Positions 11,134 through 62,942 of a DNA stretch of 64,000 nucleotides are shown here, one piece after another. The translations under genes and the position numbers were made by a program. Position 1 is the first letter of the stretch; the number at the start of each line of letters is the position of its first letter. This DNA comes from Cohaesibacter intestini (GTDB taxonomy: Bacteria; Pseudomonadota; Alphaproteobacteria; Rhizobiales; Cohaesibacteraceae). The notes under the pieces are model-generated. The model was not told the origin of the DNA and did not search any database. It saw only the letters and a program-made list of their open reading frames with translations. The stretch is from positions 310,001-374,000 of the forward strand of contig NZ_QODK01000004.1 in NCBI RefSeq assembly GCF_003324485.1, given 5' to 3'.

Positions 11134-11167
11134 GGGCGGCTTTCGCGTGCTGGAGGCCGCCCTTTTT
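11134..11167 (+). terminator. Intercistronic hairpin / partial terminator after frcB
   Basis: GGGCGGC (11134-11140) pairs with GCCGCCC (11156-11162), followed by TTTTT. It lies between the binding-protein gene and the permease gene, the usual place for an attenuator that gives the receptor higher expression. Confidence 0.75.
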
Positions 11168-11213
11168 ATCGCACAGAACCGGGCTTTCGGGTATGGCCCG
11201 GTGGGAGGTATAG

Positions 11214-13084: not shown

Positions 13085-13116
13085 TGCCTTTGTCGTGATG
13101 ACTGGACATGGATAAG

Positions 13117-13151
13117 AAAACCGCGCCTTGCTGATTGCGAGGCGCGGTTTT
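13117..13151. terminator. Bidirectional rho-independent terminator between frcA and the chemoreceptor gene
   Basis: AAAACCGCGCCT (13117-13128) and AGGCGCGGTTTT (13140-13151) form a perfect 12-bp stem with an 11-base loop. The stem begins with A and ends with T runs, so it can terminate both converging transcripts. Confidence 0.9.
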
Positions 13152-13185
13152 CGTCTTTTTCTGCCATGGAAACTGTCGGGCCGTT

Positions 13186-48263: not shown

Positions 48264-49420
48264 CCGGTTCCGTTGCCTATTCCGCCAAGCACCTGTTTGA
48301 TGGCGAACATTTTCATGACGATGTTGCCCTGTTGGTCCGGAATGGATCGGTTGCAGGGCTTGCGTCCCTCTCTGATGTGCCGGATGGTTATGCTTTGCAC
48401 GATCATGTGAGCGATCTTCTGGTGCCGGGCTTTGTCGATCTACAGGTCAATGGCGGCGGCGGGGCATTGCTCAATGACACGCCCACCAAGGATGCCATCG
48501 AGACCATTTGCTCGGCCAATGCCCGCTTTGGTACCACGTCTGTTTTACCGACGCTGATCACCGACGCGCCAGAGGTGCGCGATGCGGTGCTTGCAGCCGG
48601 TGCCGAGGCCAAGCGTGCCAAGGTGCCGGGCTTTCTGGGGTTGCATCTGGAAGGGCCGCATTTGTCGCGATCTCGCAAAGGGGCCCATGTGGAAGATTTT
48701 ATTCGGCCAATGGATGACGCTGATCTGGCGGCGCTGACCAAGGCAGTTGGCACCTTTGGGCAGGCCATGACGACGGTCGCGCCGGAAAATGTCACGTTGG
48801 ATCAGGTAAAGGCTCTGGTGGCGGCGGGCTGGAAGGTCAGTGTTGGCCATACCGATTGCAAGGCGGCGGATGCCAAGGCTTATTTCGAGGCAGGGGCGTC
48901 GATGGTGACCCATCTGTTCAATGCCATGAGCCAGATGGGCAATCGCGAACCCGGTGTGGTGGGGGCGGCGCTGACCAGTGACACGGTCTGGTGCGGCTTG
49001 ATTGCCGATTGCGTTCATGTCGATCCGCTTTCCATGGCGATAGCCTTGCGGGCCAAGCAGGGGGCAGGGCGTATTTTCTTTGTCACCGATGCCATGTCGC
49101 CCACAGGTACCGATGCGACCGAATTCATTCTTGGGGGCCGGACCATCTATCGCCGCGACGGGCGACTGACCTTGGCCGATGGCACGTTGGCCGGGGCTGA
49201 TATCGACATGCTGTCGATGATCAAGCTGGCCCATGAGAGATTGTCCTTGTCCTTGGCTGATGTGCTGAAAATGGCGTCGCTCTATCCCTCGCAGGCCATT
49301 GGTGCCGCTAACAAGGGGCACTTGCGCACCGGGGCGGATGCCGACTTTGTGCTGATGGGGGCTGATCTGTCACTGCATTCCACCTGGATTGGCGGGCAGT
49401 GCTGCTTTTCCCGCACCTGA
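48260..49420 (+). CDS. nagA: N-acetylglucosamine-6-phosphate deacetylase
   Basis: The 386-residue amidohydrolase has the metal and substrate motifs VPGFVDLQVNGGGG, HLEGPHLSRSRKGAH, SVGHTDCKA, THLFNAMSQM and FVTDAMSPTGT, which contains the catalytic Asp. It produces GlcN-6-P for the adjacent deaminase. Overlaps the deaminase gene by ATGA. Confidence 0.94.
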   Translation: MTGSVAYSAKHLFDGEHFHDDVALLVRNGSVAGLASLSDVPDGYALHDHVSDLLVPGFVDLQVNGGGGALLNDTPTKDAIETICSANARFGTTSVLPTLITDAPEVRDAVLAAGAEAKRAKVPGFLGLHLEGPHLSRSRKGAHVEDFIRPMDDADLAALTKAVGTFGQAMTTVAPENVTLDQVKALVAAGWKVSVGHTDCKAADAKAYFEAGASMVTHLFNAMSQMGNREPGVVGAALTSDTVWCGLIADCVHVDPLSMAIALRAKQGAGRIFFVTDAMSPTGTDATEFILGGRTIYRRDGRLTLADGTLAGADIDMLSMIKLAHERLSLSLADVLKMASLYPSQAIGAANKGHLRTGADADFVLMGADLSLHSTWIGGQCCFSRT

Positions 49421-49436
49421 CAGTGAGGGCGCTTGA

Positions 49437-50345
49437 ATGATTGTCTGTTTCGATATCGGCGGCACCTCTATCAAGGGTGCATTTGGTGCCGACCCACGAT
49501 CGCTGGAAATCGTGCCGCGTATCCCGACACCGGGCCATTGTTTTGAGTCCTTTGTGGCTGCGTTGCGCAGCGTGATCGCGTTGGCGCCGGAAAGACCGCG
49601 CTGCATATCCATTTCAATTGCCGGGATCATTGATCCTGCTAGTGGTCTGGCGGTTGTTGCCAACATTCCCTGCTTGCATCGACGTCCAATGCAGGCCGAT
49701 CTGCAGGCAGCCCTTGGCCTGCCGGTGATCATTGCCAATGATGCCGACTGTTTTGCGCTGGCCGAGGCCGAGCTTGGATCGGCCAAGGGGCATGAAGTCG
49801 TCTTTGGGGTCATTTTGGGTACCGGGGTTGGAGGTGGTCTGGTGATCGACGGACAGTTGGTCAATCGCCGCGGCGGGTATGCCGGAGAGTGGGGCCATGG
49901 TCCCGTAGCGGCAACCGAAGTGGGCGATCCGCCTATTCACTTGCCGCGTTTTGAATGTGGCTGTGGTCTGAAAGGCTGCATTGATGCCACCTGTAGTGCA
50001 CGGGGGCTGGAAAAGATCCACAAGCATCTGACCGGCACCTGTCTCTCCGCAGAACAGATTGTTGCGGCTTGGGAGGCTGATGACGCTGCGGCCAGCAAGA
50101 CCATAGCTGTCTATGTGGACCTGATCTCCGGGCCGTTGGCACTTGTGATCAATGTGACAGGGGCGTCGATTGTGCCGGTCGGTGGCGGTTTGTCCAATGC
50201 GACCGCGCTGATCGCAGCCATTGACGCGATGGTGCGGCAGCGTATTTTGTTGCATGGCCTTGAGCATATCGTTGTTCCGGCCGAAAACCGGATTGAGCCG
50301 GGCATTCTGGGGGCTGCAATTCTTGGCAGTCGGTTTGATGGCTAA
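49437..50345 (+). CDS. ROK-family sugar kinase, probable N-acetylhexosamine kinase
   Basis: A 302-residue kinase with the ATP loop DIGGTSIKGA, LGTGVGGGLVIDG, EWGHGPV and the zinc motif CGCGLKGCIDATCS, all intact. ROK kinases of this kind phosphorylate GlcNAc, ManNAc or glucose. Since the linked ABC importer delivers unphosphorylated sugar, a kinase is required before MurQ or NagA can act. Whether it accepts MurNAc as well as GlcNAc cannot be told. Confidence 0.9.
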   Translation: MIVCFDIGGTSIKGAFGADPRSLEIVPRIPTPGHCFESFVAALRSVIALAPERPRCISISIAGIIDPASGLAVVANIPCLHRRPMQADLQAALGLPVIIANDADCFALAEAELGSAKGHEVVFGVILGTGVGGGLVIDGQLVNRRGGYAGEWGHGPVAATEVGDPPIHLPRFECGCGLKGCIDATCSARGLEKIHKHLTGTCLSAEQIVAAWEADDAAASKTIAVYVDLISGPLALVINVTGASIVPVGGGLSNATALIAAIDAMVRQRILLHGLEHIVVPAENRIEPGILGAAILGSRFDG

Positions 50346-51117
50346 GGACGATCATCGCCAGTTCCAAGAGGGTCAAGCCGGGTCAGCCGATGTCTTGCTG
50401 GAAGTCTGTGTCGATAATGTCGAAGGGCTTGAGGCCGCTTTGGCTGGCGGGGCGGACCGGATCGAGCTTTGTTCTTCTCTGGCAGTGGGTGGCCTGACAC
50501 CATCGGCAGGGTTCATGGCCCATGCGGCGACGCACTCCCCCGTGCCTGTCTATGGCATGATCCGGCCCCGGGCCGGGAACTTCTGTTTTTCCGCTGAAGA
50601 GATCGCCTTGATGTGCGCCGACATTCGCTCCGCTCGCGATGCTGGTCTTGCGGGGGTGGTGATCGGGGCGGCGCGTCTGGATCTGACGCTCGATCTGGAC
50701 GCCTTGGCGCGGATGGTTGAGGCGGCAGAGGGCATGGGAGTGACCCTGCATCGGGTGTTTGATCTACTTGCCGACCCTGAAGCTGCCATTGAAGAGGCCA
50801 TATCTCTTGGGATCGAGCGGATCTTGACGTCTGGCGGTGCGCCTTGTGTGAATGAAGGTCGCGACCAGTTGCAGGCGTCGATCGATTGGGCTGCCGGCAG
50901 GATTGGCATCATGCCCGGTGGTGGGGTGACAATCGACAATGCGCCTCTATTCAAGGCTATGGGGATGAAGGAACTGCATGCCTCTTGTTCATCTCCTTGT
51001 CAGTTGGCTGGAGGTGCAACGCGGGAGTTGGCGCTCGGCTTTGTTGCGGCGGGGGCAAAAAAAACGGACCGCGACAGGGTCGCGGCCCTTAAGGTTGCAA
51101 TCAATCATAAGGGGTAA
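50338..51117 (+). CDS. cutC: CutC family protein
   Basis: The 259-residue TIM-barrel protein has the family signatures LEVCVDNVEGLEAALAGGADRIELCS (as LEVCVDNVEG and GADRIELC), GGLTPS, MIRPRAGNFCFS, VTLHRVFDL and RILTSGG. It was once linked to copper homeostasis, but the biochemical role is unsettled, and it often sits in amino-sugar operons, as here. The ATG at 50338 overlaps the kinase stop by eight bases. The last 60 bases contain a terminator for the opposite strand. Confidence 0.9.
   Translation: MAKDDHRQFQEGQAGSADVLLEVCVDNVEGLEAALAGGADRIELCSSLAVGGLTPSAGFMAHAATHSPVPVYGMIRPRAGNFCFSAEEIALMCADIRSARDAGLAGVVIGAARLDLTLDLDALARMVEAAEGMGVTLHRVFDLLADPEAAIEEAISLGIERILTSGGAPCVNEGRDQLQASIDWAAGRIGIMPGGGVTIDNAPLFKAMGMKELHASCSSPCQLAGGATRELALGFVAAGAKKTDRDRVAALKVAINHKG
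51057..51085 (-). terminator. Minus-strand terminator embedded in the 3' end of cutC
   Basis: CCGCGAC (51069-51075) pairs with GTCGCGG (51079-51085). Read on the minus strand the hairpin is followed, after a few bases, by T8 (A8 at 51057-51064). It lies 73 bases past the aldolase stop and is also cutC coding sequence (AKKTDRDRVAA). Confidence 0.8.
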
Positions 51118-51157: not shown

Positions 51158-51829
51158 TCAGACTTTCACAGGGCCATAATTGGCGAAGGCCGATATGACA
51201 TCGTCCATTTCGGCGTTGGACAGGATGACCGGATCGCCGACCTGTTTGCTCAGGCAATAGACCTTGGCGATATTTTCCAGCTCTTCGAGGCGCCAGAGGG
51301 CTTTGTCCAGGCTTTCGCCGACAACAATTGCCCCATGGTTGGCCATCAGGCAGCCATGGCGATCCTGCATCACACGATTGACTTCATCGGACAATTCGAT
51401 ACTGCCAAACAGGTGATAGCCAGCCAGCGGCACATCATAGCCGCCAAAGGCCGCAATCATGTAATGGCAGGCGGGGATCGTCTGGCGATTGATGGCCAGC
51501 GCCGACGCATAGGCCGGGTGGGCATGGACGACAGCGGCCATGTCGGGGCGGCTATGCAACAGGCCCTGATGGAAGCGCCATTCGCTTGACGGCTTCAAAG
51601 GCTCGTTGCCGGTGGGGGCGCTGTCGATTGGCATGCGGACGAGCATATCCGGTTCGAGGTCGGCATAGGGAACGCCGGACGGGGTGATCAGCATGTCGTC
51701 GCCCCGATCACCGGTGCGTACGGAAATATTGCCTGAGGTGCCTTGATTGATGCCGCTGCTATTCATCCAGCGGCAGGCGTCGATGATGGCTTGGCGGGTG
51801 GTGACGGTATCCGGGAGAGCGTTGGTCAC
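51158..51829 (-). CDS. Class II aldolase/adducin family protein (DHAP-shunt aldolase candidate)
   Basis: A 223-residue zinc enzyme of the L-fuculose-1-phosphate aldolase/MtnB family. Zinc ligands are HAH at 102-104 and H165 (MANHGAIVVG); E83 (SSEWRFH) is the usual catalytic acid; QGTSGNISVR binds phosphate. In the DHAP shunt such an aldolase splits 5-methylthioribulose- or 5-deoxyribulose-1-phosphate into DHAP and an aldehyde. MtnB dehydratases share the fold, and sequence alone does not decide. But the mtnC/mtnD genes of the methionine salvage pathway are absent here. GTG start overlapping the regulator stop (GTGA). Confidence 0.85.
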   Translation of the reverse strand: MTNALPDTVTTRQAIIDACRWMNSSGINQGTSGNISVRTGDRGDDMLITPSGVPYADLEPDMLVRMPIDSAPTGNEPLKPSSEWRFHQGLLHSRPDMAAVVHAHPAYASALAINRQTIPACHYMIAAFGGYDVPLAGYHLFGSIELSDEVNRVMQDRHGCLMANHGAIVVGESLDKALWRLEELENIAKVYCLSKQVGDPVILSNAEMDDVISAFANYGPVKV

Positions 51830-52818
51830 GTCTCTTGCTCCAATAATAATTGTGCGGTTTGGGAACAGGTGGCCAGATGGGTGACATAACCACCCTTGAT
51901 GGCGGCGCGTGCACCGGGCACCCTTGCTGCGCCGGAGGCAACCAGAATGCCCATTTCCTTGTCGCGCATCTGTTCGAGGGTGACGCCGAGCATCCGGTCG
52001 TCAATGTCGGTCGGGATTGGCGTACCATCCTGATCGATCAGGCGGGCGCAGATGACGCCGGTTGCGCCCTCCTGGCGGTGCTTTTCCAGACTGTCGAGGC
52101 TGAGAATGCGCGTGCGGGCAATGTGGCTGGTATCGGTGACTGTGCCGCAGGCAAACAGCACCTTGTTGCAGTCGGCCACGGCGGCCAATTGTTCTGTGAT
52201 GTCGGGCTCGGCGCGCAACTGGGTGGCCAGCTCGGCATTGGAGACCGTGAGCGGTACGTGCAGGTTGATGCAGTGCGCGCCGAAATGGCGGGCGATGGTG
52301 CCCGAGCAGACTTCGGCAGCAAAGCCCAGATCAGCAGCGCGAGAGCCGACCAATTGGACGACCGTGATGTCTTCGATGGATAGATGCGGGGCCATTTCGG
52401 CCACCCGATAGATGGTCTCGCCCCAGGCAACGCCCATCCGGTCGCCCGGTTCGAGCAAATGGGGTAGCCAGTCGGCGGTGGAGCGGGCGACGCGCTCGGT
52501 TGAGCCTGCCGGACTGGAAGGGTCGGAAGGCACCACCAAAGCTGCGGTCAGGCCATAGGCATCCTTGAGCCGTTCAGACAGTTCGTGATTGAGAAAGATC
52601 TCGCTGTCGAGCGTGATACGAACATATTCACGGCGGCGGGCTTCGGTCAGATAATTGACAACGGATGCGCGGCTGACGCCGAGGCGCTTGGCAATGTCAT
52701 TCTGATTGAGGCCGTCATGATAATAGGCCCATGTCGCCTCGATGATCGCGTCGTCCTGCCTTGAAATGCGGCGCGTCAGAGAATGGGTAGGTTTTGCTTT
52801 GGAACTGTCTGTCGCCAT
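51826..52818 (-). CDS. SorC/DeoR-type sugar-responsive transcriptional regulator
   Basis: About 330 residues: an N-terminal helix-turn-helix (GLNQNDIAKRLGVSRASVVNYL) split as GLNQNDIAKRLGVS and RASVVNYL, and a C-terminal sugar-phosphate-binding domain (GVAWGETIYRVAEM, VQLVGSRAADLGFAAE, ATCSQTAQLLL). The ATG at 52818 has GGGGGGAGAA upstream; a GTG nine codons earlier is less likely. It is co-transcribed with the aldolase. The effector is probably a phosphorylated intermediate of this pathway, and the long inverted repeat at 55395-55431 its likely target. Confidence 0.87.
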   Translation of the reverse strand: MATDSSKAKPTHSLTRRISRQDDAIIEATWAYYHDGLNQNDIAKRLGVSRASVVNYLTEARRREYVRITLDSEIFLNHELSERLKDAYGLTAALVVPSDPSSPAGSTERVARSTADWLPHLLEPGDRMGVAWGETIYRVAEMAPHLSIEDITVVQLVGSRAADLGFAAEVCSGTIARHFGAHCINLHVPLTVSNAELATQLRAEPDITEQLAAVADCNKVLFACGTVTDTSHIARTRILSLDSLEKHRQEGATGVICARLIDQDGTPIPTDIDDRMLGVTLEQMRDKEMGILVASGAARVPGARAAIKGGYVTHLATCSQTAQLLLEQET

Positions 52819-52942
52819 GGTCGGTTCTCCCCCCAATTGGCTCACTGCCCGGCTGGTCCTTTTTTGTTTGTGGACCGGGATGTGAGATCTTTAGGCGCTT
52901 GTCGCTCTAGCCTGATTTGGCTCGGGATGCAATTTGCGCCAT

Positions 52943-52987
52943 CACCCGGCCCCTTTAGCGCGCGGAAAAAAGCTGCGGGGCCGGGTG
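52943..52987. terminator. Perfect 11-bp inverted repeat downstream of mtnA
   Basis: CACCCGGCCCC (52943-52953) and GGGGCCGGGTG (52977-52987) are perfectly complementary with a 23-base GC- and T-rich loop. It starts 12 bases after the mtnA stop on the minus strand and separates mtnK-mtnA from the regulator-aldolase pair. The T6 run lies in the loop, so it may act as a processing or attenuation element. Confidence 0.6.
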
Positions 52988-52998
52988 CGGTTGAAGCG

Positions 52999-54099
52999 TC
53001 AGTCAGTCTTGGACAGGTCTGGGAAGAGCGCCGCCAGACCTTCCGGGGTGGCCTCACAGACACCGCGTTCCGTAATCAATCCGGTGACCAGCCTGTTCGG
53101 TGTGACATCAAAGGCCGGGTTGCCGCCCTCAGTCCCCATCGGGGTGACTTGCACTGTGCCGATGTCACCTGCTTCCGTCTGACCCTGAACATGGGTGGTT
53201 TCGAAGGCATTGCGTTCCTCGATGGGAATTTCGGCAACGCCGTCATCCACCGTCCAGTCAATGGTCGGAGAAGGCAGGGCGACATAGAAGGGCACGCCAT
53301 TGTCATGGGCGGCGAGCGCCTTGAGATAGGTGCCGATCTTGTTGCAGACATCGCCGCGGCGGGTGGTGCGGTCGGTCCCGACAATGACCATGTCTACCAA
53401 ACCATGCTGCATCAAATGGCCGCCGGCATTGTCGACGATATATTTGTGCTCCACACCATGGCTGCCCAGCTCCCAGGCTGTGATGGCGCCCTGATTGCGC
53501 GGACGGGTTTCATCGACCCAGACATGGAGTGGAATGCCTTCATTATAGGCGTGATACATCGGTGAGGTTGCTGTGCCCCAATCCACAGTGGCCAGCCAAC
53601 CGGCATTGCAGTGGGTGAGAATGCGGACCGGTTCACCCTTTGGCTTTTTGGCAGCGATTTCGCGGATGATGGCGAGGCCATTTTCGCCGATGCGGCGGTT
53701 GATTTCCACATCTTCATCGGCGATTTCATGGGCCAATGCCAAAGCAGCCGCCGCACGATCCGCTTCGGGCAGGGGGCTCAAATGGGCTTTGCAGCGATTG
53801 AGCGCCCAGCGCAGGTTGATGGCCGTTGGACGGGTCTTGTCGAGATAATGCCATGCCTCGTCGAGATGCTTGTCGGACGGGTCGAGCTTCATCGCAAGCG
53901 CCATGCCATAGGCAGCCGTTGCCCCGATCAGCGGAGCGCCGCGGACGCGCATTTCGACGATGGCGTCAGCAAATTCTTGCATCGTGGTCACGGACTGGAT
54001 GCGGAATTCGTGGGGCAGCCAGCGCTGATCGATGATCGCGACCGCGTTGGTGCTTTCATCCCACCAGAGTGAACGATAGTGTTTTCCGTTGACCTTCAT
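52999..54099 (-). CDS. mtnA: Methylthioribose-1-phosphate isomerase family (MtnA / 5-deoxyribose-1-phosphate isomerase)
   Basis: A 366-residue protein of the aldose-1-phosphate isomerase (eIF2B-like) family. [13 protein letters not shown] (54-66), [12 protein letters not shown], the catalytic Cys in THCNAG (C164), [16 protein letters not shown], the catalytic Asp in VGTDR (D243) and NKIGTY are all present, so it should be active. It turns a 5-substituted ribose-1-phosphate into the 1-phospho-ketose. Start overlaps the kinase stop (ATGA). The paired kinase shows that the pathway begins with a free sugar, not a nucleoside. Confidence 0.92.
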
Positions 54100-55355
54100 A
54101 GGATGTCCCTCTTGTTGAAGTCGCGTGCCATGGCCACGAGGGCGGTGGGATCGGCGATGGTTTCGGCTTTGAGAATGATTTCTGCTCCCATCATCAGGTT
54201 GCGTGCTTCCAGTGGGGCACGAACCGTGACGTCCTCGATGCTTTCAAAGTCGGCATTGTGGGCGAGGGACAGGGTGCGGCGGTGCATTTCGATGCCGCAG
54301 ATGGCAAGCGCGTCGATCCAGATGTCTTTGAGCAAAGCCTTACAGGCCGCTTCCGAACTGTGACCCTGATCTTCGAACAGGCTTTTCGGATAGAGCATGC
54401 CGGTGCGCTCGGTCTTCCAGAGATGGATGAACTCGGCCTCGAACTGCTGATAACAATCGGAGATCACCGAAAGGATCCATTCCTGATAGTCATCAAGCTC
54501 TGCACCGCGATGGGCCGGTTGGCTGAAATAGGCCATCAGGAAGTTGGCGGTCAGCATGCCAATGTCAAAGCCCATCGGGGCATATTGGACAAATTCGGGG
54601 TCAATCACCCGGCTGTCGCTATCGGTCGACATGATCGACCCGGAATGCAGGTCCCCATGCACCATGGTTTCGGTGTTGGAGGCAAATTTCATCAGCATGC
54701 GCTGGGCGCGGGCTTTCAGCTCGGCATTGCCTCGCAGCTGCGCCACCACCGGGTCAAGACCATCGGTATGGTGGTTCATTTCCGCGTCATAATAGGGATC
54801 GGTGAAGACCAGAGCCTCGGTGATGGCGGGGATTTCAATATTACCGGCAAAGAGGCCGACATCGGCTTTCTTGTCCGCAGACTTCATTGACAATTCGGAT
54901 CCGCGGAAGGCCGTACGGGCACAGAAATTACCAAGGAAAGTGGCAAGACCCTCAACCCTTTCACCCCTGATCAGTTTGTGGCGCAGAATTAGGTGCGGCT
55001 TGATGAATTCCATCGCGATCAGGGCGTTGGTTTCATCGAAATGGAACACTTCGGGTACCGAGCCGGGGTCACGGGCTTCCTGACGGATCAGCGCGTGATA
55101 TTCGAAAAAGGCCCGGTAAAGCGGCAAGGGCCAGCTGTCGCCGACAAGGCGGACATAGGGCAGGGCCTGCTTGACGATGATGGTCTCGATTTCCCCATCC
55201 ACAATGAAGACGAGGTTGAGGTTTCCGTCGCCCACTTCACGGACCTTCCAGGCGCTCTGGTCACCACCGAGTCGGTCGGCAATGGCAGCTACGCCGGCGA
55301 GGTAACCGGGCAGGCTTTCGGTTGAAAATGGTGTGTATTGACTATGTTCAGACAT
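54096..55355 (-). CDS. mtnK: Methylthioribose kinase family (MtnK)
   Basis: A 419-residue kinase of the APH/choline-kinase fold, with [15 protein letters not shown] (38-52) as the nucleotide loop, the catalytic HGDLH at 233-237, DPEF (D252) and GFDIG. It phosphorylates C1 of free 5-methylthioribose or, in the related pathway, 5-deoxyribose. GGAGGA precedes the ATG. It is the first gene of the minus-strand half and is divergent from the ABC importer. Specificity beyond a 5-modified ribose is inferred from the family. Confidence 0.92.
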
Positions 55356-55394
55356 GGCTTTGTTCCTCCCATGGTGGCTTCACACTGACATCAA

Positions 55395-55444
55395 ATTATT
55401 CAAACGTCAAGTGGGTTGACAAATGAATAATCTGTGCTGATAAT
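55395..55444 (+). promoter_or_regulatory. Long inverted repeat overlapping a near-consensus sigma-70 promoter
   Basis: ATTATTCAAACGTCAA (55395-55410) and TTGACAAATGAATAAT (55416-55431) are inverted repeats matching at 13 of 16 positions around a 5-base centre. TTGACA (55416-55421) inside the right arm, 17 bases, then GATAAT (55439-55444) make an excellent promoter for the importer genes. The dyad covers the -35 and lies between the two halves of the locus, as expected for a SorC-type operator. Confidence 0.75.
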
Positions 55445-55489
55445 CGCTCGTGGAAGCTACGCCGCACTGGTCGGCGCAGGGAGGAATAA

Positions 55490-57004
55490 TTGAGTGAAGC
55501 AGCGCTGAAAGTGACAGGGCTGCGCAAGTCATTCGGCCAAAACCGAGTGCTGCGCGGGCTTGACATGGAGCTATATCCCGGGACCGTTACCGTGCTGATG
55601 GGCGCGAACGGGGCGGGCAAATCGACACTCGTCAAAGTCATCTGCGGCTATCACGGCGCCGATGAGGGAGCGATGGAACTTGAAGGCTCTGCCTTTGAGC
55701 CGGAGGATGCCGCTGACGCCATTGCCAAGGGCGTGGTGACGGTGCATCAATCCATCGATGACGGGGTCATTCCAGATCTAGATGTGGCCAACAATCTGTT
55801 GCTCGACCGGCTCGCCCGATCGGATGCGGGTCTGTTCGTGCGTGAACGCCCAATGCGTGCGGAAGCCGAGCGCGTGGCAGCCGGTATGGGGCTGTCGATG
55901 GATGTCCGCACCCGGGTATCCGACCTCGGGGTTGCTGATCGCCAGATGATCGCCATTGCACGGGCCATGGCGCGCGCACCGAAATTGCTGATCCTTGATG
56001 AGCCGACATCGTCACTCTCCGCATCAGAAGCAGATCGCCTGTTTGCGCTCATTGACCGGTTGCGGGATCAGGGTGTGACCATTCTGTATATCTCCCACCG
56101 CATGTCAGACATCCGCCGGATTGCCGATCGGATCATCTGTATGCGGGATGGCAAGATTTCCGGCCTGTTTGAAGGGCCGACGCTTGATTACAAGGGTGCG
56201 GTCACCGCGATGCTTGGTCGTCAGATGAGCGAAGCGGCGATTGACCCAATGGCGGCAGGGGACCCGATTTTAGAGATCAATGATCTCACCCTGCTTGAGC
56301 ATGGCGGCAAGGTCAGTCTGAGTGCTGGCGACGGCGAAGTGGTTGCCATCACCGGCCTGCTTGGCAGTGGCAAGTCAAAGCTCGGGGAAATCATTTTCGG
56401 TCTCGACCAGTCGCCGACAGGCTCGATGAAAATCGATGGCAAGGCCTATGCGCCGAACAATGCCAAGGATGCTGTGCGCGGAGGCGTCTATATGTCGCCG
56501 AAAGACCGGGCAACCAATGCGGTCATTCCCGACTTCGACATTGCCGACAATATGACCCTGCCGTTCCTTGGCGCCTTCAGTCGCCTGTCCCTGCTCAGTG
56601 GCAAACGCCAGCGCAGGGCAGCGGACGCGATGATCAGCCAGATCGGCGTTGTCTGTCAGGGCAATGGGGACGGGATCAATACCCTGTCGGGCGGCAACCA
56701 GCAAAAAGTGATGATTGGGCGCTGGTTGCTTGAGCCATGCCGGGTTCTGCTGCTCGACGAGCCTTTCCAAGGGGTCGATATCGGCGCCCGAAGGGACATT
56801 GGCCAGCATATCCGGGCCACAGCCAAGGGGCGGGCGACCATCGTCTTCGTCTCCGAAATCGACGAAGCTCTGGAGATCGCCGATCGGGTGATCGTGCTCC
56901 ATGAGGGCGCCGTCGTCGGCGAACATCGCAACAGCAATATCGATATGACCGCCCTGGTTGGCCAGGTGTCCGGTCAAGGTGCAACCAACCAAGCGGCCGA
57001 ATAG
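55490..57004 (+). CDS. Ribose-type ABC importer, fused double ATPase, DHAP-shunt/RLP locus
   Basis: A 504-residue RbsA-like protein. The first domain has GANGAGKST, LGVADRQMIAIARAM and LLILDEPTSSLSASE; the second has GLLGSGKSKLGE (here with a Walker Lys, unusual for the second domain), LSGGNQQKVMIG and LLLDEPFQGVDIGA. TTG start, five bases after GGGAGGA; no ATG or GTG is in frame nearby. It energises the adjacent permease. Confidence 0.92.
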   Translation: MSEAALKVTGLRKSFGQNRVLRGLDMELYPGTVTVLMGANGAGKSTLVKVICGYHGADEGAMELEGSAFEPEDAADAIAKGVVTVHQSIDDGVIPDLDVANNLLLDRLARSDAGLFVRERPMRAEAERVAAGMGLSMDVRTRVSDLGVADRQMIAIARAMARAPKLLILDEPTSSLSASEADRLFALIDRLRDQGVTILYISHRMSDIRRIADRIICMRDGKISGLFEGPTLDYKGAVTAMLGRQMSEAAIDPMAAGDPILEINDLTLLEHGGKVSLSAGDGEVVAITGLLGSGKSKLGEIIFGLDQSPTGSMKIDGKAYAPNNAKDAVRGGVYMSPKDRATNAVIPDFDIADNMTLPFLGAFSRLSLLSGKRQRRAADAMISQIGVVCQGNGDGINTLSGGNQQKVMIGRWLLEPCRVLLLDEPFQGVDIGARRDIGQHIRATAKGRATIVFVSEIDEALEIADRVIVLHEGAVVGEHRNSNIDMTALVGQVSGQGATNQAAE

Positions 57005-57006
57005 TT

Positions 57007-58023
57007 ATGCAAAACGACAAAATCATCAACTTTGCCATCAAATACGGCTTTCTGATCCTGCTGGTGGGCCTCGTCATTTACTTCTCTGTTGCGGCCTCCG
57101 GCTTCGCCTCGCCACGCTCTGCTGTGTTCGTTCTTCAGTCGGTGGCGATCACTGGCATCCTTGCGCTGGGTGTCACCTGTACGCTCGTGGTTGACGGGTT
57201 CGATCTGTCGATTGGCGCGGTCGCTACCTCGGCACTGATGCTGTCAGCCTATTCGATGGTTATCCTTGAACAGTCTGCCTTTGTGGCGGTGATGCTGTGT
57301 CTGCTGATGGGCGCTCTGGTCGGTTTGGTCAATGGCATTCTGATCGTGAAATTCCGCGTGCCGGATCTGCTGGCAACCCTTGGCATGATGTTCCTGCTGA
57401 TCGGTCTGCAACGCATTCCGACGCAGGGCAACTCAATTGCCACGGGCATGAGCCTGCCAGATGGCTCTCAGGCAACCGGTGTCTTCTCGCAGGCCTTCCT
57501 GTGGCTTGGCCGTCATCGCTTTGATCTGGTGATGGAACGCCTTGTGCCGGTGCCTGTTCTGATCTTCATCATCATTGCCTTCGGCATCTGGGTGTTCCTG
57601 GCGCTGACCCGTCATGGCCGTCTGATGTATGCCATCGGGTCTAATGAGCGTGCCGCCGGTCTCGTCGGTACCCCGGTCAACAAATACAAGGTCGTTGCCT
57701 ATATGGTCTCCGGCGTCATGGCTTCTGTCGGTGGCATTCTGCTGGCGGCCCGCCTCGGGCGCGGGGATATCGCATCAGGCAACAATCTGCTGCTCGACAG
57801 TGTGGCCGCTGCCCTCATCGGCTTTGCCGTGCTGGGCGCTGCCCGTCCGAATGCGTTCGGGACGGCCATCGGAGCGCTGTTTGTCGGTATTCTTTTGCAG
57901 GGCATGACCATGCTCAACGCCCCTTACTACACACAGGATTTCGTCAAGGGCGCTGTCCTTGTCGTTGCTCTTGTCTTCACTTTCTACCTGTCCTCGCGTC
58001 GCGGGTCAGGCGGGAAAGCCTAA
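57007..58023 (+). CDS. Ribose-type ABC importer, permease, DHAP-shunt/RLP locus
   Basis: A 338-residue membrane protein of the RbsC family with about nine segments, LVVDGFDLSIGAVATSA, VNGILIVKFRVPDLLATLG (as VNGILIVKF and RVPDLLATLG) and a late SVAAALIGFAVLGA loop. It begins two bases after the ATPase stop. Together with the binding protein it should import the free sugar that MtnK phosphorylates. Confidence 0.92.
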   Translation: MQNDKIINFAIKYGFLILLVGLVIYFSVAASGFASPRSAVFVLQSVAITGILALGVTCTLVVDGFDLSIGAVATSALMLSAYSMVILEQSAFVAVMLCLLMGALVGLVNGILIVKFRVPDLLATLGMMFLLIGLQRIPTQGNSIATGMSLPDGSQATGVFSQAFLWLGRHRFDLVMERLVPVPVLIFIIIAFGIWVFLALTRHGRLMYAIGSNERAAGLVGTPVNKYKVVAYMVSGVMASVGGILLAARLGRGDIASGNNLLLDSVAAALIGFAVLGAARPNAFGTAIGALFVGILLQGMTMLNAPYYTQDFVKGAVLVVALVFTFYLSSRRGSGGKA

Positions 58024-58032
58024 AATTTCGAC

Positions 58033-58053
58033 GGGCCGATCTCTTGTCGGCCC
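58033..58053 (+). repeat. Intercistronic hairpin between permease and binding-protein genes
   Basis: GGGCCGA (58033-58039) pairs with TCGGCCC (58047-58053) around a 7-base loop, ten bases after the permease stop. It probably adjusts the ratio of membrane to receptor mRNA. Confidence 0.6.
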
Positions 58054-58138
58054 ATCGATCCAGTCATGAGTGCGGCTCTGATTATCAACGGGAGGAGCCG
58101 GGCTCGCCATGAAGTCTCATAGTTTGGGAGGATCTAAC

Positions 58139-59188
58139 ATGTTGAGACGTGAATTTATGAAACTGGCCTGCGCCACTTCGCTCGCTTTCGGGGCGTTTGG
58201 TGTCACGGCTGCCGCTGCGGCCGATATGCCAAAGCCATTTGACAAGCCCGAAGATGTCACCATCGCTCTGGTGCGCTATCTCTCCACCGGTGACTTCTTC
58301 CAAGCCTATCTTTCCGGCGTGGAAAAACAGTCGGCAGCCCTTGGGGTCAATCTGCGCATTTTCGACAGCCGTCAGGATGCAGCCCTGCAGGCCGATATGG
58401 TTGATCAGGCCATTGCTCTGGGTGTTGACGGCATCGTCATCCAGCATGGTCTGACCGAATCCATGAAGGAAGCTGCCCAGCGGGCGGTGGAAGCTGGCAT
58501 CAAGGTCGTGGCCTTCGACGTCAATGTTGAGAATAAAGCCATCCCGCAGGTCGAGCAGTCCGACTATCTGCTCGGCAAACTGGCTCTGGAACAGGCTATG
58601 AAGGATAATGGCAATTCCTTCACTGCTGGCTATGTCTATGTGCCGGGTATCGCACCGCTTGACCGTCGTCATGTGGCTTGGGAAGAAGTGAAGAAGGCCA
58701 ATCCGGGCATCAAGGAAGCCGCCATGTTCGGCACCCTCGACAACCCGATTGCCAACTCGGTGGCCAACCAGGCCCGTGCCGTGCTGCAGGCCAATCCAAC
58801 CATCAATGTGGTCTTCGCTCCTTATGACGCCTTTGCCAAGGGCGTGAAGATTGCCGTCGATGAAGCTGGTCTGAATGAGGATATCAAGATTTATTCTGCT
58901 GATGTCTCGACTGCTGATATTTCGGCAATGCGCGAACCGAATTCAGCTTGGGCCGCAACGGTTGCAACCAACCCCGCCGTGGTTGGTGAAGTGTCCGTGC
59001 GCACCCTTGCCCTGATGCTGGCAGGTACCAATCCGGGCGAACAGGTCGTGGTTCCACCAACCCTGATCACCCAGACCTTCCTGAATGACAATGACATCAA
59101 GAACATGGACGAGCTTGGCCAGAAAATGCCGCAGTTTGCCCATGCTGACGTGGCAATGGCTCCTTGGATGCCTGTGCCTAAGCGGTAA
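58139..59188 (+). CDS. Ribose-type ABC importer, sugar-binding protein, DHAP-shunt/RLP locus
   Basis: A 349-residue periplasmic receptor. The signal peptide (MLRREFMKLACATS onward) probably ends after TAAAAA. The type I fold is supported by VRYLSTGDFFQAYLSG, DGIVIQHGLTESMKEA, VAFDVNVENKAIPQ and FAPYDAFAKGV. GGGAGG lies six bases before the ATG at 58139; an ATG at 58109 is in frame but badly spaced. The ligand is predicted to be a (5-modified) pentose from gene context. A strong terminator follows. Confidence 0.9.
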   Translation: MLRREFMKLACATSLAFGAFGVTAAAAADMPKPFDKPEDVTIALVRYLSTGDFFQAYLSGVEKQSAALGVNLRIFDSRQDAALQADMVDQAIALGVDGIVIQHGLTESMKEAAQRAVEAGIKVVAFDVNVENKAIPQVEQSDYLLGKLALEQAMKDNGNSFTAGYVYVPGIAPLDRRHVAWEEVKKANPGIKEAAMFGTLDNPIANSVANQARAVLQANPTINVVFAPYDAFAKGVKIAVDEAGLNEDIKIYSADVSTADISAMREPNSAWAATVATNPAVVGEVSVRTLALMLAGTNPGEQVVVPPTLITQTFLNDNDIKNMDELGQKMPQFAHADVAMAPWMPVPKR

Positions 59189-59197
59189 CCCCCGCAG

Positions 59198-59245
59198 AGC
59201 GCCCGGCTGGTTCCCCGGAAAAAGCCATGCCGGGCGCTTTCCTTT
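59198..59245 (+). terminator. Terminator/attenuator after the binding-protein gene
   Basis: AGCGCCCGGC (59198-59207) and GCCGGGCGCT (59229-59238) form a perfect 10-bp stem followed by TTTCCTTT. The mutarotase and downstream genes are then read by partial read-through or from an unseen promoter. Confidence 0.75.
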
Positions 59246-59293
59246 CCAAGGCTATGCCCACCCGAATTCTGACAGACGACACGGAGTATTGAG

Positions 59294-59737
59294 ATGTTGA
59301 TTGGAATTGATGGTCGCATGACCCCGGAGCTGCTGCATTGTCTGGCACGGATGGGACATGGCGATGAAATTGTTGTTGCGGATGCCAATTTCCCGGCAAA
59401 TTCCACCGCTGAGCATTGCAATGTTAAAGAGGCCATCCAGCTGCCCGGTCTTGATGCACCAGCAACGATCGAACTGATCACGCAATTGATGCCGCTTGAA
59501 GGCTTTGCCGACTATTCCGCGCTTCGGATGGAAATTGACGGTGAGCCAGAGACCCTTGGCGAAGTGCATAGTGAAGGCTTTGCGGTGATGGAGTCACGCC
59601 TGCCAGAAACGGGATCGCTCTCCAGTCTTGAGCGGCAAGACTTTTATGTACAGGCCAAACGCGCCTTTGCCGTGGTGCGCACCACCGAAGCGCGGCCCTT
59701 CGGCTGCTTCATTCTGCGTAAGGGTGTCGTTTTTTAA
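59294..59737 (+). CDS. RbsD/FucU-family sugar mutarotase
   Basis: The 147-residue protein matches the FucU/RbsD fold: LLHCLARMGHGDEIVVADANFPA with the catalytic His (H22) and Asp (D24), and the C-terminal AVVRTTEARPFGCFILRKGV carrying the Tyr/Arg-type sugar contacts (given here as VRTTEARPFG and FILRKGV). Such enzymes speed conversion between sugar anomers (FucU) or pyranose and furanose forms (RbsD). It could supply the anomer needed by the kinase. ACGGAG precedes the ATG. 136 bases separate it from the transketolase genes. Confidence 0.9.
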   Translation: MLIGIDGRMTPELLHCLARMGHGDEIVVADANFPANSTAEHCNVKEAIQLPGLDAPATIELITQLMPLEGFADYSALRMEIDGEPETLGEVHSEGFAVMESRLPETGSLSSLERQDFYVQAKRAFAVVRTTEARPFGCFILRKGVVF

Positions 59738-59872
59738 GGCACCATCTTCAAAGACATTGCTTTTTTAAAGGACTGACCTGCCCCACAGGCCAGTCCAAAT
59801 GACTTGTTCCCAGTCTCCCAAGATAGGCAGCCCCTTTATCAGCATGAAGTGGCTTGACGATGAGGTATTCAC

Positions 59873-60799
59873 ATGCGCAATGAAAAGAGGACGGAGGACG
59901 TTGCTCTCGGCATTCGCCGTCGCGTTTTCGAGCACACGATCCGCAACAATGGCGGCTATCTGAGCCAAGCCTGTTCAGCCGCCGAGCAATTGGCATGGCT
60001 CTATAATGAGCAGCTCAATTTGGGCGCGCCGACCTTGCCTGCGATCCCCAAGCCGTTTGAAGGTGTGCCATCACCCAACAACCCGAATTATCACACCGGG
60101 GCAGGCTATAACGGCCCGGCAACGCCGGACTTTGACCGTCTGTTCATCGCGCCTGCCCATTATGCGCTGGTTGCCTATGCGACCCTGATCGAAGTGGGCC
60201 GGATGGATGAAGCGGGTCTGAAAATGTTCAATCAGGATGGCTCGTCGGTCGAGATGATCGGGGCGGAGCATTCGCCCGGCATGGAAGTGCATAACGGTAC
60301 CCTCGGCATCGGGCTTTCCACCGCCGCAGGCCTTGCCTATGGCCGTCGCCTGAAAGGCGATAAAGGCAAGACATGGGTCTTCATGTCGGACGGGGAAGTG
60401 CAGGAGGGCCAAACGTGGGAAGCCATTCAGGCCGCTCGCTTCCATGGCATCGACAGCCTTCATGCCATCATGGATGTCAATGATCAGCAATGCGACGGGG
60501 CGATGGATTCGGTGATGGAAGTCGGCGACATTCGCCGCAAGATGATTGAGTTCGGTGCTGCCTGCATTGAGATTGACGGCCATGATCTCGACGCCATGCG
60601 GCAGGCAGTGAATGAACCCCATGAAGGGCGTCCCTTGATCATTCTGGCCCGGACGTCTCCGTTCAAGAGCATGCAAATTCTGGAAGAGCGCTTCCCGCGT
60701 CTGCATTATGTCCGCTTCAAATCCGAAGATGAACGCGCCCGCTTCAACACATCGATTGCCGAAGATCTCGGTGTCGATCCTGTTGATTATGCGCATTAA
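59873..60799 (+). CDS. Transketolase, N-terminal (ThDP-binding) subunit
   Basis: The 308-residue subunit has the ThDP/metal motif SDGEVQEGQTWEAIQ then DVND (normally GDG to N), AEHSPGMEVHNGTLGIGLSTAAG and APAH in the helix usually ending SKGH. The early motif normally containing an essential-type His (GHxG; His30 of yeast transketolase) reads NGGYL at residues 26-30, so that His is absent. This hints at an unusual substrate. It pairs with the next gene, 11 bases downstream, as in split transketolases such as the apulose-4-phosphate enzyme. Confidence 0.88.
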   Translation: MRNEKRTEDVALGIRRRVFEHTIRNNGGYLSQACSAAEQLAWLYNEQLNLGAPTLPAIPKPFEGVPSPNNPNYHTGAGYNGPATPDFDRLFIAPAHYALVAYATLIEVGRMDEAGLKMFNQDGSSVEMIGAEHSPGMEVHNGTLGIGLSTAAGLAYGRRLKGDKGKTWVFMSDGEVQEGQTWEAIQAARFHGIDSLHAIMDVNDQQCDGAMDSVMEVGDIRRKMIEFGAACIEIDGHDLDAMRQAVNEPHEGRPLIILARTSPFKSMQILEERFPRLHYVRFKSEDERARFNTSIAEDLGVDPVDYAH

Positions 60800-60810
60800 G
60801 GAGGCCCGAA

Positions 60811-61815
60811 ATGGTTGAAATGGTAAACCGCCCCTATGCTACGGCCTTCGAAAAATTCGCCGCTGGCAATCCTGATATTCTCTGCCTGTCTGCCGATCTG
60901 ACTTCGTCCTGCGAGATTGACGGGTTCCGTGATCGGCATCCGGACCAGTTCATCTCGATGGGGATGGCCGAGCAGAATATGCTCAGCTTTGCCGGTGGTC
61001 TGGGGTTGGCTGGCTTCCGGCCCTTCATTCACACTTTCGGCGTCTTCATGTATCGCCGCCCTTACGATCAGCTGATGGCCTCGATCGCTTATCCGCGCCG
61101 CAAGGTGCGGCTGATGGGCTTCTTGCCCGGGGTCACCACGCCCGGCGGCATGACCCACCAGTCGATTGAAGATATCAGCGTTATGCGGTCGATCCCGAAT
61201 ATGACGATCCTTGAAACCGGGGACGCGACCGAGGTGGAATCGATCTGCGAAGCGGCAGACAGCATTGACGGGCCGGTCTGGTGCCGGGTGTTGCGCGGCT
61301 CTGTGCCGCGGCTGTTTGATACGCCGATCAAGGTGGGCGAGATGCGCGAATTGTCCGCTGGCGATGACATTCTGGTTGTCACCTCTGGCATTTGCACCGA
61401 AGAGGCTCTGCGGGCTCGCTCGGCGCTGGCCAAGGCTGGTCTGTCGATCCGCCATTTGCATCTGCACACGATCAAGCCGTTCGATGCCAAGACTTTGCTC
61501 GACCATATCGGCTCGGTCAAGCATGGGGTGATCACGTTGGAGAACCATGTCACCGAAGGTGGTGTTGGCTCGCTGGTGGCGGAGACCATGGCGGATGCAG
61601 GCGTCGGCAAGCGGCTCATTCGTTTGGGGCTTAAGGATACCTATGCTCACGGCGGTTCGCGGCCTTATTTGATGCGTTATTATGGTCTGGATGCGGTGGC
61701 TCTGGTCAAGGGCATCGAGGATCTGATGGGCCAGCAATTCGGTATTTCCGAGGATGATTTGGATACCGCCCGCGTCGAGGATGTGCATTCGCTGGTCAAG
61801 GCGGAGGCGCTCTGA
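60811..61815 (+). CDS. Transketolase, C-terminal subunit
   Basis: A 334-residue partner with the pyrimidine-binding domain: MGMAEQNMLSFAGGLGLAG contains the catalytic Glu that activates ThDP, PGGMTHQSIEDISVMRSIPNM is the substrate-loop region, and a C-terminal domain follows (VTSGICTEEALRA, HTIKPFDA, LENHVTEGGVGS). AGGAGG precedes the ATG. The stop overlaps the RuBisCO-like gene by one base, so transketolase and RuBisCO-like protein are tightly coupled. Confidence 0.9.
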   Translation: MVEMVNRPYATAFEKFAAGNPDILCLSADLTSSCEIDGFRDRHPDQFISMGMAEQNMLSFAGGLGLAGFRPFIHTFGVFMYRRPYDQLMASIAYPRRKVRLMGFLPGVTTPGGMTHQSIEDISVMRSIPNMTILETGDATEVESICEAADSIDGPVWCRVLRGSVPRLFDTPIKVGEMRELSAGDDILVVTSGICTEEALRARSALAKAGLSIRHLHLHTIKPFDAKTLLDHIGSVKHGVITLENHVTEGGVGSLVAETMADAGVGKRLIRLGLKDTYAHGGSRPYLMRYYGLDAVALVKGIEDLMGQQFGISEDDLDTARVEDVHSLVKAEAL

Positions 61816-62942
61816 TGGATCGCTTCGTCGTCACCTATCGGATTTTTGCCGAGGATCAGGCCGACGCGGAGGACCGCGCGGCCAACATCGCTCTGGAAGA
61901 TACCGTCGAGATCCCGCGTGATGTGGTGCCGTCAGGCTATGTGGAAGATGTGGTGCTGGGGCGCGTGGAAAGCGTCGAGCAGGTTACGGATCGCACATGG
62001 CATGGACGGGTCGCCTATCATATTGACGCGGTGGGGCGGGAATTTCCGCAATTTCTCAATGTGGTTCTGGGCAATGCCTCGATCCTCAAGGGCGTCAAGG
62101 CCATTGCCATTGAGACCAATGAGGATGTGCGGGATCGCTTTCCCGGTGCGCAATATGGCGTCGAGGGTCTAAGAGCCCTGACCGGGCGCAAAAGCGGGGG
62201 CTATGTCTGTCCGGTGATCAAACCGCAAGGGTCCTCGGCGGAGCGGCTGGCGCATTTGTGCTATTTGACCGCAAGGGCGGGGGCTGACATTGTCAAAGAA
62301 GATCATGGCCTGTGCAATCAGGACGCCGCCCCCTTCCGGCTGCGGGTCAAACTGGCGGCCGCCGCGGTCAACCGGGCCAATGCGGAGCGGGCAGAAGAGG
62401 GGGAGACCACCAAATCCCTTTATTTTGCCAGTATTGGTGGCCATGGGGATCAGGTGCGCGAGCTGGCCTATTATGCCCAAGAGGTCGGGGCGCATGGTGT
62501 GTTGCTCATTCCGGGGCTGCTGGGCTTTGACGCAATGAACCGGCTGGCGCAGGATCCGGACTTCAATCTACCGATCATGGCCCATCCGAGCCATCTGGGG
62601 CCATATGTCCTGTCAGAAGATACCGGCTATGGTCATGGCATGCTGTTTGGCGATCTGATGCGTTTGGCGGGGGCTGATATTTCGGTGTTCCCCAACCATG
62701 GTGGGCGCTTTGGTTTCTCGGTGGAGGAATGCGAGGCGATTGTGGCCAGTTGCCGGTCCAAGGATGGTCCGGGGCGGGCGATCCTGCCAAGCCCTGGTGG
62801 CGGCATGAGCCTTGATCGTCTTGCGGACATGAAAAAACTCTATGGCGAGGATTGCGTCTATTTGCTGGGCGGCAGTCTGTTGCGTTTTGGTGAGCAGATT
62901 GGCGATGCCATTCGCCAGATGCGGGCAGCACTCGACAGCTGA
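61815..62942 (+). CDS. RuBisCO-like protein (type IV RuBisCO large-subunit homologue)
   Basis: The 375-residue protein has the RuBisCO large-subunit fold: an N-terminal alpha/beta domain, then a TIM barrel with VIKPQGSS (K136, equivalent to the Lys of the KPK motif), ADIVKEDHG (K161 at the carbamylated-Lys position, D163 kept, H164 where Glu is usual), MAHPSHLGPY, and SPGGGMSLDRL followed by LLGGSLLRFG. Loop 6, where true RuBisCO has a catalytic Lys in GKLEG, reads HGGRFGF (295-301), so carboxylation is not expected. Known relatives enolise or isomerise phosphorylated keto-sugars (methionine salvage, MTA-isoprenoid shunt) or act in apionate breakdown. Overlaps the transketolase stop by one base. 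Confidence 0.92.
   Translation: MDRFVVTYRIFAEDQADAEDRAANIALEDTVEIPRDVVPSGYVEDVVLGRVESVEQVTDRTWHGRVAYHIDAVGREFPQFLNVVLGNASILKGVKAIAIETNEDVRDRFPGAQYGVEGLRALTGRKSGGYVCPVIKPQGSSAERLAHLCYLTARAGADIVKEDHGLCNQDAAPFRLRVKLAAAAVNRANAERAEEGETTKSLYFASIGGHGDQVRELAYYAQEVGAHGVLLIPGLLGFDAMNRLAQDPDFNLPIMAHPSHLGPYVLSEDTGYGHGMLFGDLMRLAGADISVFPNHGGRFGFSVEECEAIVASCRSKDGPGRAILPSPGGGMSLDRLADMKKLYGEDCVYLLGGSLLRFGEQIGDAIRQMRAALDS

Follow-up and report, generated by a model that had tools for sequence, protein, structure and literature searches.

A RuBisCO-like protein linked to a split transketolase in a putative methylthioribose salvage locus of Cohaesibacter intestini

Methylthioribose is a waste sugar from the use of S-adenosylmethionine. 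RuBisCO-like proteins (RLPs) have a handful of known roles, and the role known for the clade nearest to the protein studied here ends in a cupin. We analysed a stretch of 64,000 nucleotides from Cohaesibacter intestini (the window; host genome of 4.79 Mb in 27 contigs) in which, at positions 51158–62942, an RLP gene directly follows the two genes of a split transketolase (TK). The same locus holds an ABC importer and genes of the 5-methylthioribose (MTR) kinase and isomerase families. Here we describe this locus, its conservation in other genomes and the route that it may encode.

Gene content and operator

The first-pass annotation, made from the sequence alone, had claimed eleven genes with given strands and families. 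All eleven were confirmed in place at 51158–62942, with profile matches to each family. The forward strand ends in tkN (59873–60799), the N-terminal, thiamine diphosphate (ThDP)-binding half of the split TK; tkC (60811–61815), its C-terminal half; and rlp, the RLP gene (61815–62942). Before them on the same strand stand an importer ATPase of RbsA type (55490–57004, listed with a TTG start), an RbsC-type permease (57007–58023), a periplasmic binding protein (58139–59188, its start assumed to be an internal ATG in a frame open from 58109) and a FucU/RbsD-type mutarotase (59294–59737; PF05025, 113 bits). The reverse strand carries mtnK (54096–55355; TIGR01767, 446 bits, above the cut-off of 275), mtnA for 5-methylthioribose-1-phosphate isomerase (52999–54099; TIGR00512, 425.5 bits, above 279), a SorC/DeoR-type regulator with a sugar-binding domain (51826–52845; PF04198, 180 bits; NF053881, 183 bits, below its cut-off of 420) and an ald2-like class II aldolase of the fuculose- or ribulose-1-phosphate type (51158–51829; PF00596, 180 bits; PRK08087, 197 bits, below 264; RU1PAldHalo, 152 bits, below 300). 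Pfam cut-offs are passed by the aldolase, the regulator, the ATPase, the permease, the FucU/RbsD protein, both TK halves and the RLP. For the binding protein, the matches are to ribose-type binding-protein profiles and all fall short of the cut-offs. The tight overlaps noted earlier were measured as 4 nt between ald2 and the regulator gene, 4 nt between mtnA and mtnK, and 1 nt between tkC and rlp. With mtnK, mtnA and a class II aldolase in one cluster, the locus has the gene set that marks a dihydroxyacetone phosphate (DHAP) shunt.

The two halves diverge from a region with a putative operator (55395–55431). Nested inverted repeats, ATTATTCA...TGAATAAT, surround the core GTCAA-N5-TTGAC (55406–55420). 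The exact core occurs once in the window; dinucleotide shuffles give an expectation of 0.06, and 6 of 100 shuffles held at least one copy. This operator is an addition to the first-pass annotation, as is the closest relative of the binding protein, given below.

Linkage of the split transketolase and the RLP

Are the RLP and the TK kept together in other genomes? An order-level sample of 397 genomes, searched with the RLP, gave 37 matches in 36 genomes: 23 at 44–100% identity (one of them, at 51%, truncated by a contig end) and 14 at 30–37%. A second set, from named genomes, comprises the best 80 loci from one scan with a 10-row alignment; more loci exist, and some records are common to both sets. 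The best named match in the scan is Cohaesibacter celericrescens (L070). Because these loci were picked by RLP likeness, their counts speak only for linkage inside the clade. Fifty-four of the 80 have at least 8.5 kb on each side and are called full-flank loci.

tkC was found in all 23 order-sample genomes with an RLP of the window's clade. In 21 of the 23 neighbourhoods, the window included, tkN and tkC stand directly before rlp (a contig end cuts tkN in L046 and rlp in L067). In the remaining two, rlp opens the contig (L039) or the TK lies about 21 kb off within one extended cluster (L036). Both TK genes are present in 72 of the 80 named-genome loci. Where at least 2.2 kb precede rlp, 71 of 76 loci have both, with tkC less than 150 nt from rlp; the exceptions are L075, L092, L097, L114 and L132, and the TK of L132 is probably the distant one. 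The tkC and rlp matches are 0–30 nt apart in 75 loci. As many genomes of alphaproteobacteria share the row tkN-tkC-rlp, the linkage exceeds chance.

The first-pass annotation had staked its case on the two halves of the locus being kept together in relatives, and the comparison did not refute it. mtnK and mtnA lie inside the mapped stretch in 15 of the 23 order neighbourhoods (window counted). Among the full-flank loci, 50 have the TK, 48 mtnA, 41 both mtnK and mtnA, 40 the binding protein and 37 the SorC regulator; an aldolase of any kind (Ald2, an aldolase-SDR fusion or another class II aldolase) occurs in 33, FucU in 9 and a relative of BisC in 4. The row mtnK-mtnA-tkN-tkC-rlp is found intact in 11 of the 80 named loci.

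The operator is also found elsewhere. Of 54 divergent mtnK/abcA intervals, 19 contain its exact core and one more has it with a mismatch; an operator in every locus was therefore rejected. The 80 loci hold 27 exact cores, 21 of them at most 350 nt before a labelled cluster gene, and three base-composition shuffles of all loci hold none. One-mismatch sites number 65 against 20.7 in shuffles, and 50 of them lie away from labelled genes, so we place weight on exact sites only. The core stands before tkN in L088 and L100, where the TK-RLP genes have their own start, and by position it also precedes the phosphorylase gene of L074. These sites support a single regulon in part of the clade, with the site changed or absent elsewhere.

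Two rival explanations bear on this linkage. In the first, the halves are two unrelated pathways that became divergent neighbours by chance. They are indeed rearranged among genomes, the TK is found with other feeder genes, and most divergent intervals lack the core. However, 41 of the 54 full-flank loci keep the halves together, 11 of the 80 named loci have the single row, and one operator serves both halves in 19 loci and the window; chance was already disfavoured on these grounds, and we give it hardly any credence. In the second, a free 5-modified ribose is the TK acceptor, as in the formation of 7-deoxysedoheptulose, and the RLP serves a separate purpose. A promiscuous transketolase of Synechococcus elongatus is described as making 7-deoxysedoheptulose from 5-deoxyribose (PMC8102628). 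This leaves unexplained both the close spacing of tkC and rlp in 75 loci and the TK loci that lack mtnK and mtnA, and it strikes us as very improbable.

A record that bears the name Enemella evansiae (Actinomycetota; L074) contains the cluster too, with an RLP 75% and a TK 82–87% identical to those of the window. Either a recent transfer or a mixed assembly would account for this.

The transketolase site and the RLP clade

Pfam TK domains score over their cut-offs in the two adjacent genes (PF00456, 59.1 bits; PF02779, 87.2; PF02780, 71.5), and the best solved-structure match of both halves is the split TK of Carboxydothermus. The site itself is unusual. Four positions of the canonical substrate histidine and aspartate set of the human and E. 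coli enzymes are replaced in the window pair: by human numbering, His37 becomes Tyr29, His110 becomes Ile129, His416 becomes Leu105 and Asp424 becomes Gly112. The human His110 position is a gap in the alignment against the split TK. His77 (His96), Ser345 (Ser33) and Arg474 (Arg162) are retained by position, and the cofactor glutamate region reads MAEQNM. We take these residues to be contacts to sugar hydroxyls and phosphate. The divergent motifs NNGGYLSQACS, VEMIGAEHSPGMEV and TTPGG are conserved at above 97% in 70 TkN and 73 TkC rows, from which sequences of fewer than 280 residues had been dropped. Because the site is conserved yet non-standard, a non-standard donor is favoured. A hydrophobic pocket near C1 would suit a methylthio or a methyl group.

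A housekeeping role for this TK was rejected, as two full-length TK frames exist elsewhere in the genome. The apulose-4-phosphate transketolase AptA/AptB is likewise a split TK in a sugar operon; it is not known to involve an RLP, MtnK or MtnA. Other TK-like genes came to light as well. The window's genome has a third, short frame of the TK N type (G000:C9:40242-40997, 293 aa). C. celericrescens has a second, different split transketolase downstream, with matches from 17327 and 18313 of L070 that are 26–31% identical. In L085, a 780-aa protein (11147–13486) encoded directly after rlp, beside tkN and tkC, is related to transketolase and also to the E1 component of pyruvate dehydrogenase, with an aceE match of 155 bits that does not reach the cut-off.

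The window RLP falls well under the MtnW cut-offs (170 bits against 409, and 116.6 against 513.6). Its best solved relative, by sequence and by the predicted model (pLDDT 93.2), is 3qfw, an RLP of Rhodopseudomonas palustris. K136, K161, D163, H164 and H257, presumably the lysine, aspartate and histidine residues of the site, are invariant across all 17 aligned RLP rows, those of the cupin-linked clade included. In a tree of 41 rows built by a quick method, seven cupin-linked rows and the long-branched L065 split off with support of 100, and the TK-linked rows lie opposite. L137, a TK row, sits at an open fork; the long-branched L054, which has no TK, falls among the TK-linked rows; and five loci without an adjacent TK nest among TK loci. 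We infer the DeepYkr label for the window RLP because it belongs to the sister group of that type.

Gene neighbourhoods also differ between these groups. Of the 14 order neighbourhoods around a low-identity RLP (30–37%), none has the TK and 11 have a cupin cluster (one cluster member is annotated). The cupin of L055 had no match across the 80 named loci. A query of the Rhodospirillum rubrum type had none in the window's genome, in a search without a positive control. R. rubrum and R. palustris are described as having a cupin beside the RLP (PMC5893883), and the R. rubrum RLP as forming 1-methylthioxylulose-5-phosphate and 1-methylthioribulose-5-phosphate at 3:1 (PMC6302742, PMC5893883). Judged by homology, the window RLP would perform the same isomerisation, giving 1-methylthioxylulose-5-phosphate.

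How does the locus compare with the known RLP pathways? The 5'-methylthioadenosine (MTA)-isoprenoid shunt of R. rubrum and R. palustris, which uses a DeepYkr RLP and a cupin methylsulfurylase, resembles it in the MtnP/MtnA entry and in having an RLP, from the sister group, that should produce 1-methylthioxylulose-5-phosphate (PMC5893883, PMC6302742). In the window, however, the split TK takes the cupin's position, and a dedicated MTR-type importer and MtnK are added. Canonical methionine salvage through MtnW shares the MtnK and MtnA entry and the RLP fold. It was ruled out, since the RLP scores below the MtnW cut-offs and the genome has no match to acireductone dioxygenase, in a search that was positive in 5 of 14 control genomes.

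Two further RLPs deserve mention. A RuBisCO or apionate-type role was rejected for the window RLP; it fits instead the genome's second RLP, on another contig (G000 contig C6:52230-53072; L001, L069), whose nearest family is OiaX, 3-oxo-isoapionate-4-phosphate decarboxylase (557 bits for a partial stretch, cut-off 700). In L065, the divergent RLP stands in a row with a PfkB kinase, a glycerol-1-phosphate-dehydrogenase-like protein and an MtnK that is 35% identical and passes its cut-off.

Substrate, feeder genes and proposed route

The binding protein offers a clue to the sugar. Among solved structures its sequence is closest to 4ry8, at 228 bits, with 144 for the next and at most 64 for ribose binders. 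A Foldseek comparison of the predicted structure (pLDDT 88.8) also puts 4ry8 first, with E 4.8e-33 and 38% identity. The title of 4ry8 names the MTR transporter binding protein TLET_1677. Against it, 63 of 317 positions are identical and invariant, a count that does not distinguish those that contact the ligand. This likeness suggests that the window protein binds MTR. Elsewhere the genome has a gene for an MTA phosphorylase that passes two cut-offs, and the genome's only MtnA match is the one at the locus; MTR-1-phosphate derived from MTA would therefore find its only MtnA-dependent outlet here. On account of the binding-protein likeness and this genome context, MTR is favoured among the sugars named in the first-pass annotation.

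5-Deoxyribose is another of those sugars, and clusters of mtnK, mtnA and an aldolase gene are described as acting on it in other bacteria (PMC6079011). Here MtnK, MtnA and the RLP would yield 1-deoxyxylulose-5-phosphate (DXP), and the TK would act as a DXP synthase-like enzyme in reverse or exchange a unit of acetaldehyde; DXP may go into isoprenoid synthesis as well. The DHAP shunt and 5-deoxyribose salvage (MtnK-MtnA-Ald2, DrdK-DrdI-DrdA) are described with the same clustering of mtnK, mtnA and a class II aldolase, some clusters also having sugar transporters and a homologue of fucose mutarotase (PMC6079011, PMC10986504); the window cluster has the RLP and the split TK in addition. tkC is DXS-like, scoring 153.8 bits where the best TK model gives 190, and the hydrophobic exchange at the C1-OH site would accommodate methyl too. 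But the solved protein nearest to the binding protein is an MTR binder, and some loci have, next to the TK, an S/N-oxide reductase of BisC type, for which a deoxy-sugar offers no evident role. We consider 5-deoxyribose unlikely.

Variation in the feeder genes bears on the same question. Thirteen full-flank loci lack mtnK. Judged by clustering with annotated proteins of L077 and L093, seven of these (L074, L077, L079, L080, L085, L093 and L129) combine a purine-nucleoside phosphorylase with mtnA, the TK and the RLP; their mtnA is 42–71% identical to the window's, five have a TRZ/ATZ-type deaminase (the superfamily of 5'-deoxyadenosine, MTA and S-adenosylhomocysteine deaminases) and four a BMP-type binding protein. 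L092 and L097 carry phosphorylase and deaminase in addition to mtnK. A third locus type, to which L124, L128 and L132 belong, has a XylB-like FGGY kinase, a Zn-dehydrogenase, an AraD-like epimerase and SorC, together with a different ribose-type importer and, in most cases, an S/N-oxide reductase of the BisC family. Loci of this type with the RLP and a PfkB kinase are L041/L161, L042/L159, L047/L160 and L163; in the Cohaesibacter congeners G009, G012 and G014 it includes a second Zn-dehydrogenase. BisC relatives are present in L154, L155 and L157 and were not seen in L156. All three kinds of feeder can converge on a 2-ketopentose-5-phosphate, and an enzyme for oxidised sulfur beside the TK suggests a sulfur-bearing sugar. 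Three feeder kinds beside the same TK narrow the likely substrate by genome comparison alone.

Two more sulfur-related neighbourhoods were noted. A DMSO-reductase-like operon of DmsC, Fe-S and molybdopterin subunits lies beside the RLP-less TK of Cohaesibacter congeners (L154:13177-17060 and, by position, L155:13075-16967). L043, L047, L128 and L162 have a relative of homocysteine S-methyltransferase and a cystine-type ABC binding protein near the TK, RLP and BisC genes.

Unmodified pentoses are another candidate. Ribose-1-phosphate would pass through ribulose-1-phosphate and, by way of the RLP, to xylulose-5-phosphate, the standard TK donor, with ribose, nucleosides or pentitols as the source. 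The inosine/guanosine-type phosphorylase of the nucleoside variant, the XylB-like kinase and AraD-like epimerase of the third type, and the RbsD/FucU protein at the locus all agree with this. The two full-length TK frames already in the genome do not, nor do the loss of the canonical histidine and aspartate positions from this TK and the distance of the binding protein from ribose binders (at most 64 bits against 228). We find plain pentoses a decidedly doubtful substrate.

From the gene content, the linkage, the shared putative operator and the homologies we infer a substrate, a set of reactions and a fate for the C2 unit. The cluster is probably, though far from securely, an importer-linked regulon for the salvage and catabolism of MTR, with two branches. 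The ABC importer would take up MTR, the FucU-type protein would speed anomer exchange, and MtnK would form MTR-1-phosphate, which endogenous MTA could also supply through the MTA phosphorylase encoded elsewhere. MtnA would convert it to 5-methylthioribulose-1-phosphate. In one branch, the DHAP shunt, Ald2 would cleave this ketose into DHAP plus (methylthio)acetaldehyde. In the second branch, a 1,3-isomerisation by the RLP, like that of the R. rubrum enzyme, would shift the carbonyl, and the split TK, in the place of the R. rubrum cupin methylsulfurylase, would split 1-methylthioxylulose-5-phosphate into glyceraldehyde-3-phosphate and a ThDP-bound C2 unit bearing the methylthio group.

The first-pass annotation had proposed two such fates for the phospho-ketose. 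The occurrence of an aldolase in 33 of 54 full-flank loci fits this, as does R. palustris, in which RLP and Ald2 branches are described as acting on the same intermediate (PMC5893883). The aldolase branch is known chemistry, as set out in PMC10986504. One aldolase kept throughout was rejected: the window-type Ald2 occurs in 5 of the 80 named loci and the aldolase-SDR fusion in 43. In Rhodobacter sp. SW2 (L119:11888-14177), genes for triosephosphate isomerase and a weakly IolE-like protein (61 bits) follow rlp and an aldolase gene, an order that fits a route yielding DHAP and glyceraldehyde-3-phosphate.

What becomes of the C2 unit? The window genes do not decide this. A net flux through the TK needs an outlet beyond return of the unit to glyceraldehyde-3-phosphate. 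Phosphoketolase and sulfoacetaldehyde acetyltransferase provide analogies for a beta-elimination of methanethiol that leaves acetyl-ThDP. Granted the earlier steps, we tentatively suggest that this elimination occurs here, with acetate or acetyl-phosphate to follow; the alternative is transfer of the unit to an aldehyde acceptor. The split TK would then be a ThDP-dependent C-S lyase, a 'thio-phosphoketolase' that releases glyceraldehyde-3-phosphate, eliminates methanethiol from its ThDP enamine and hands on an acetyl group, a function that we think possible but would not presume. If it were true, the RLP and TK would give marine and soil alphaproteobacteria an oxygen-independent route by which MTR or MTA yields methanethiol and enters central carbon metabolism. 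The sulfo-TK pathway, with the 6-deoxy-6-sulfofructose transketolase SqwGH, is a parallel in that a TK is dedicated to a sulfur-bearing sugar (PMC12890257). It differs in that sulfur stays on the aldehyde half, 4-deoxy-4-sulfoerythrose, whereas here it would be on the C2 half; no RLP takes part in the pathway as PMC12890257 describes it.

Several observations weigh against the proposed two-branch route. MtnK, MtnA and Ald2 are described as handling 5-deoxyribose as well (PMC10986504). In the TK, His133 could stand in for the lost histidine. The operator core, even allowing one mismatch, is absent from 34 of the 54 divergent intervals. mtnK is missing from the available stretch in 22 of the 80 named loci, and both mtnK and mtnA in 15, some of them on short contigs. 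L092, L097 and L114 have the RLP, mtnK and mtnA, but no TK was found within the 21-kb stretch; the TK is absent between the binding protein and rlp in L075; and L086, L087 and L098 have no mtnK, mtnA or phosphorylase in their full-flank stretches, with no feeder seen. The phosphorylases belong to the inosine/guanosine family rather than to MTAP, and none of the families listed for the deaminases is matched above its cut-off. A BisC relative occurs in only 5 of the 80 named loci, and plain xylulose-5-phosphate would fit the XylB-like and AraD-like feeders just as well.

Within the genus, 4 of 18 sampled genomes have the RLP and 7 have tkC. tkC matches without an RLP of this clade were found in four further genomes, three congeners at 93–95% and G036 at 48%. 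As the congeners G009, G012 and G014 carry the TK and no RLP was found in them at E 1e-20, the TK is not exclusively the RLP's partner, and a TK tied solely to the RLP was rejected.

The type of pathway is already known, both as MTA/MTR salvage by MtnA and an RLP and as the DHAP shunt; the RLP-TK unit with its importer and feeder variants appears to be the new part. A pairing of RLP and split transketolase was not found in the open-access literature among the matches listed, and the word 'transketolase' occurs nowhere in PMC6079011, PMC6302742, PMC5893883 or PMC8914248. A conserved RLP-TK unit with an importer would be a new outlet for MTR, one that links the waste of S-adenosylmethionine to glycolysis and perhaps to methanethiol. 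It also offers a defined test of what a TK with a rebuilt active site does.

Beyond the aldolase end of the locus, at 48260–51117 of the window, nagA, an N-acetylglucosamine kinase-like gene and a CutC gene stand in a row and converge on ald2; they seem unrelated.

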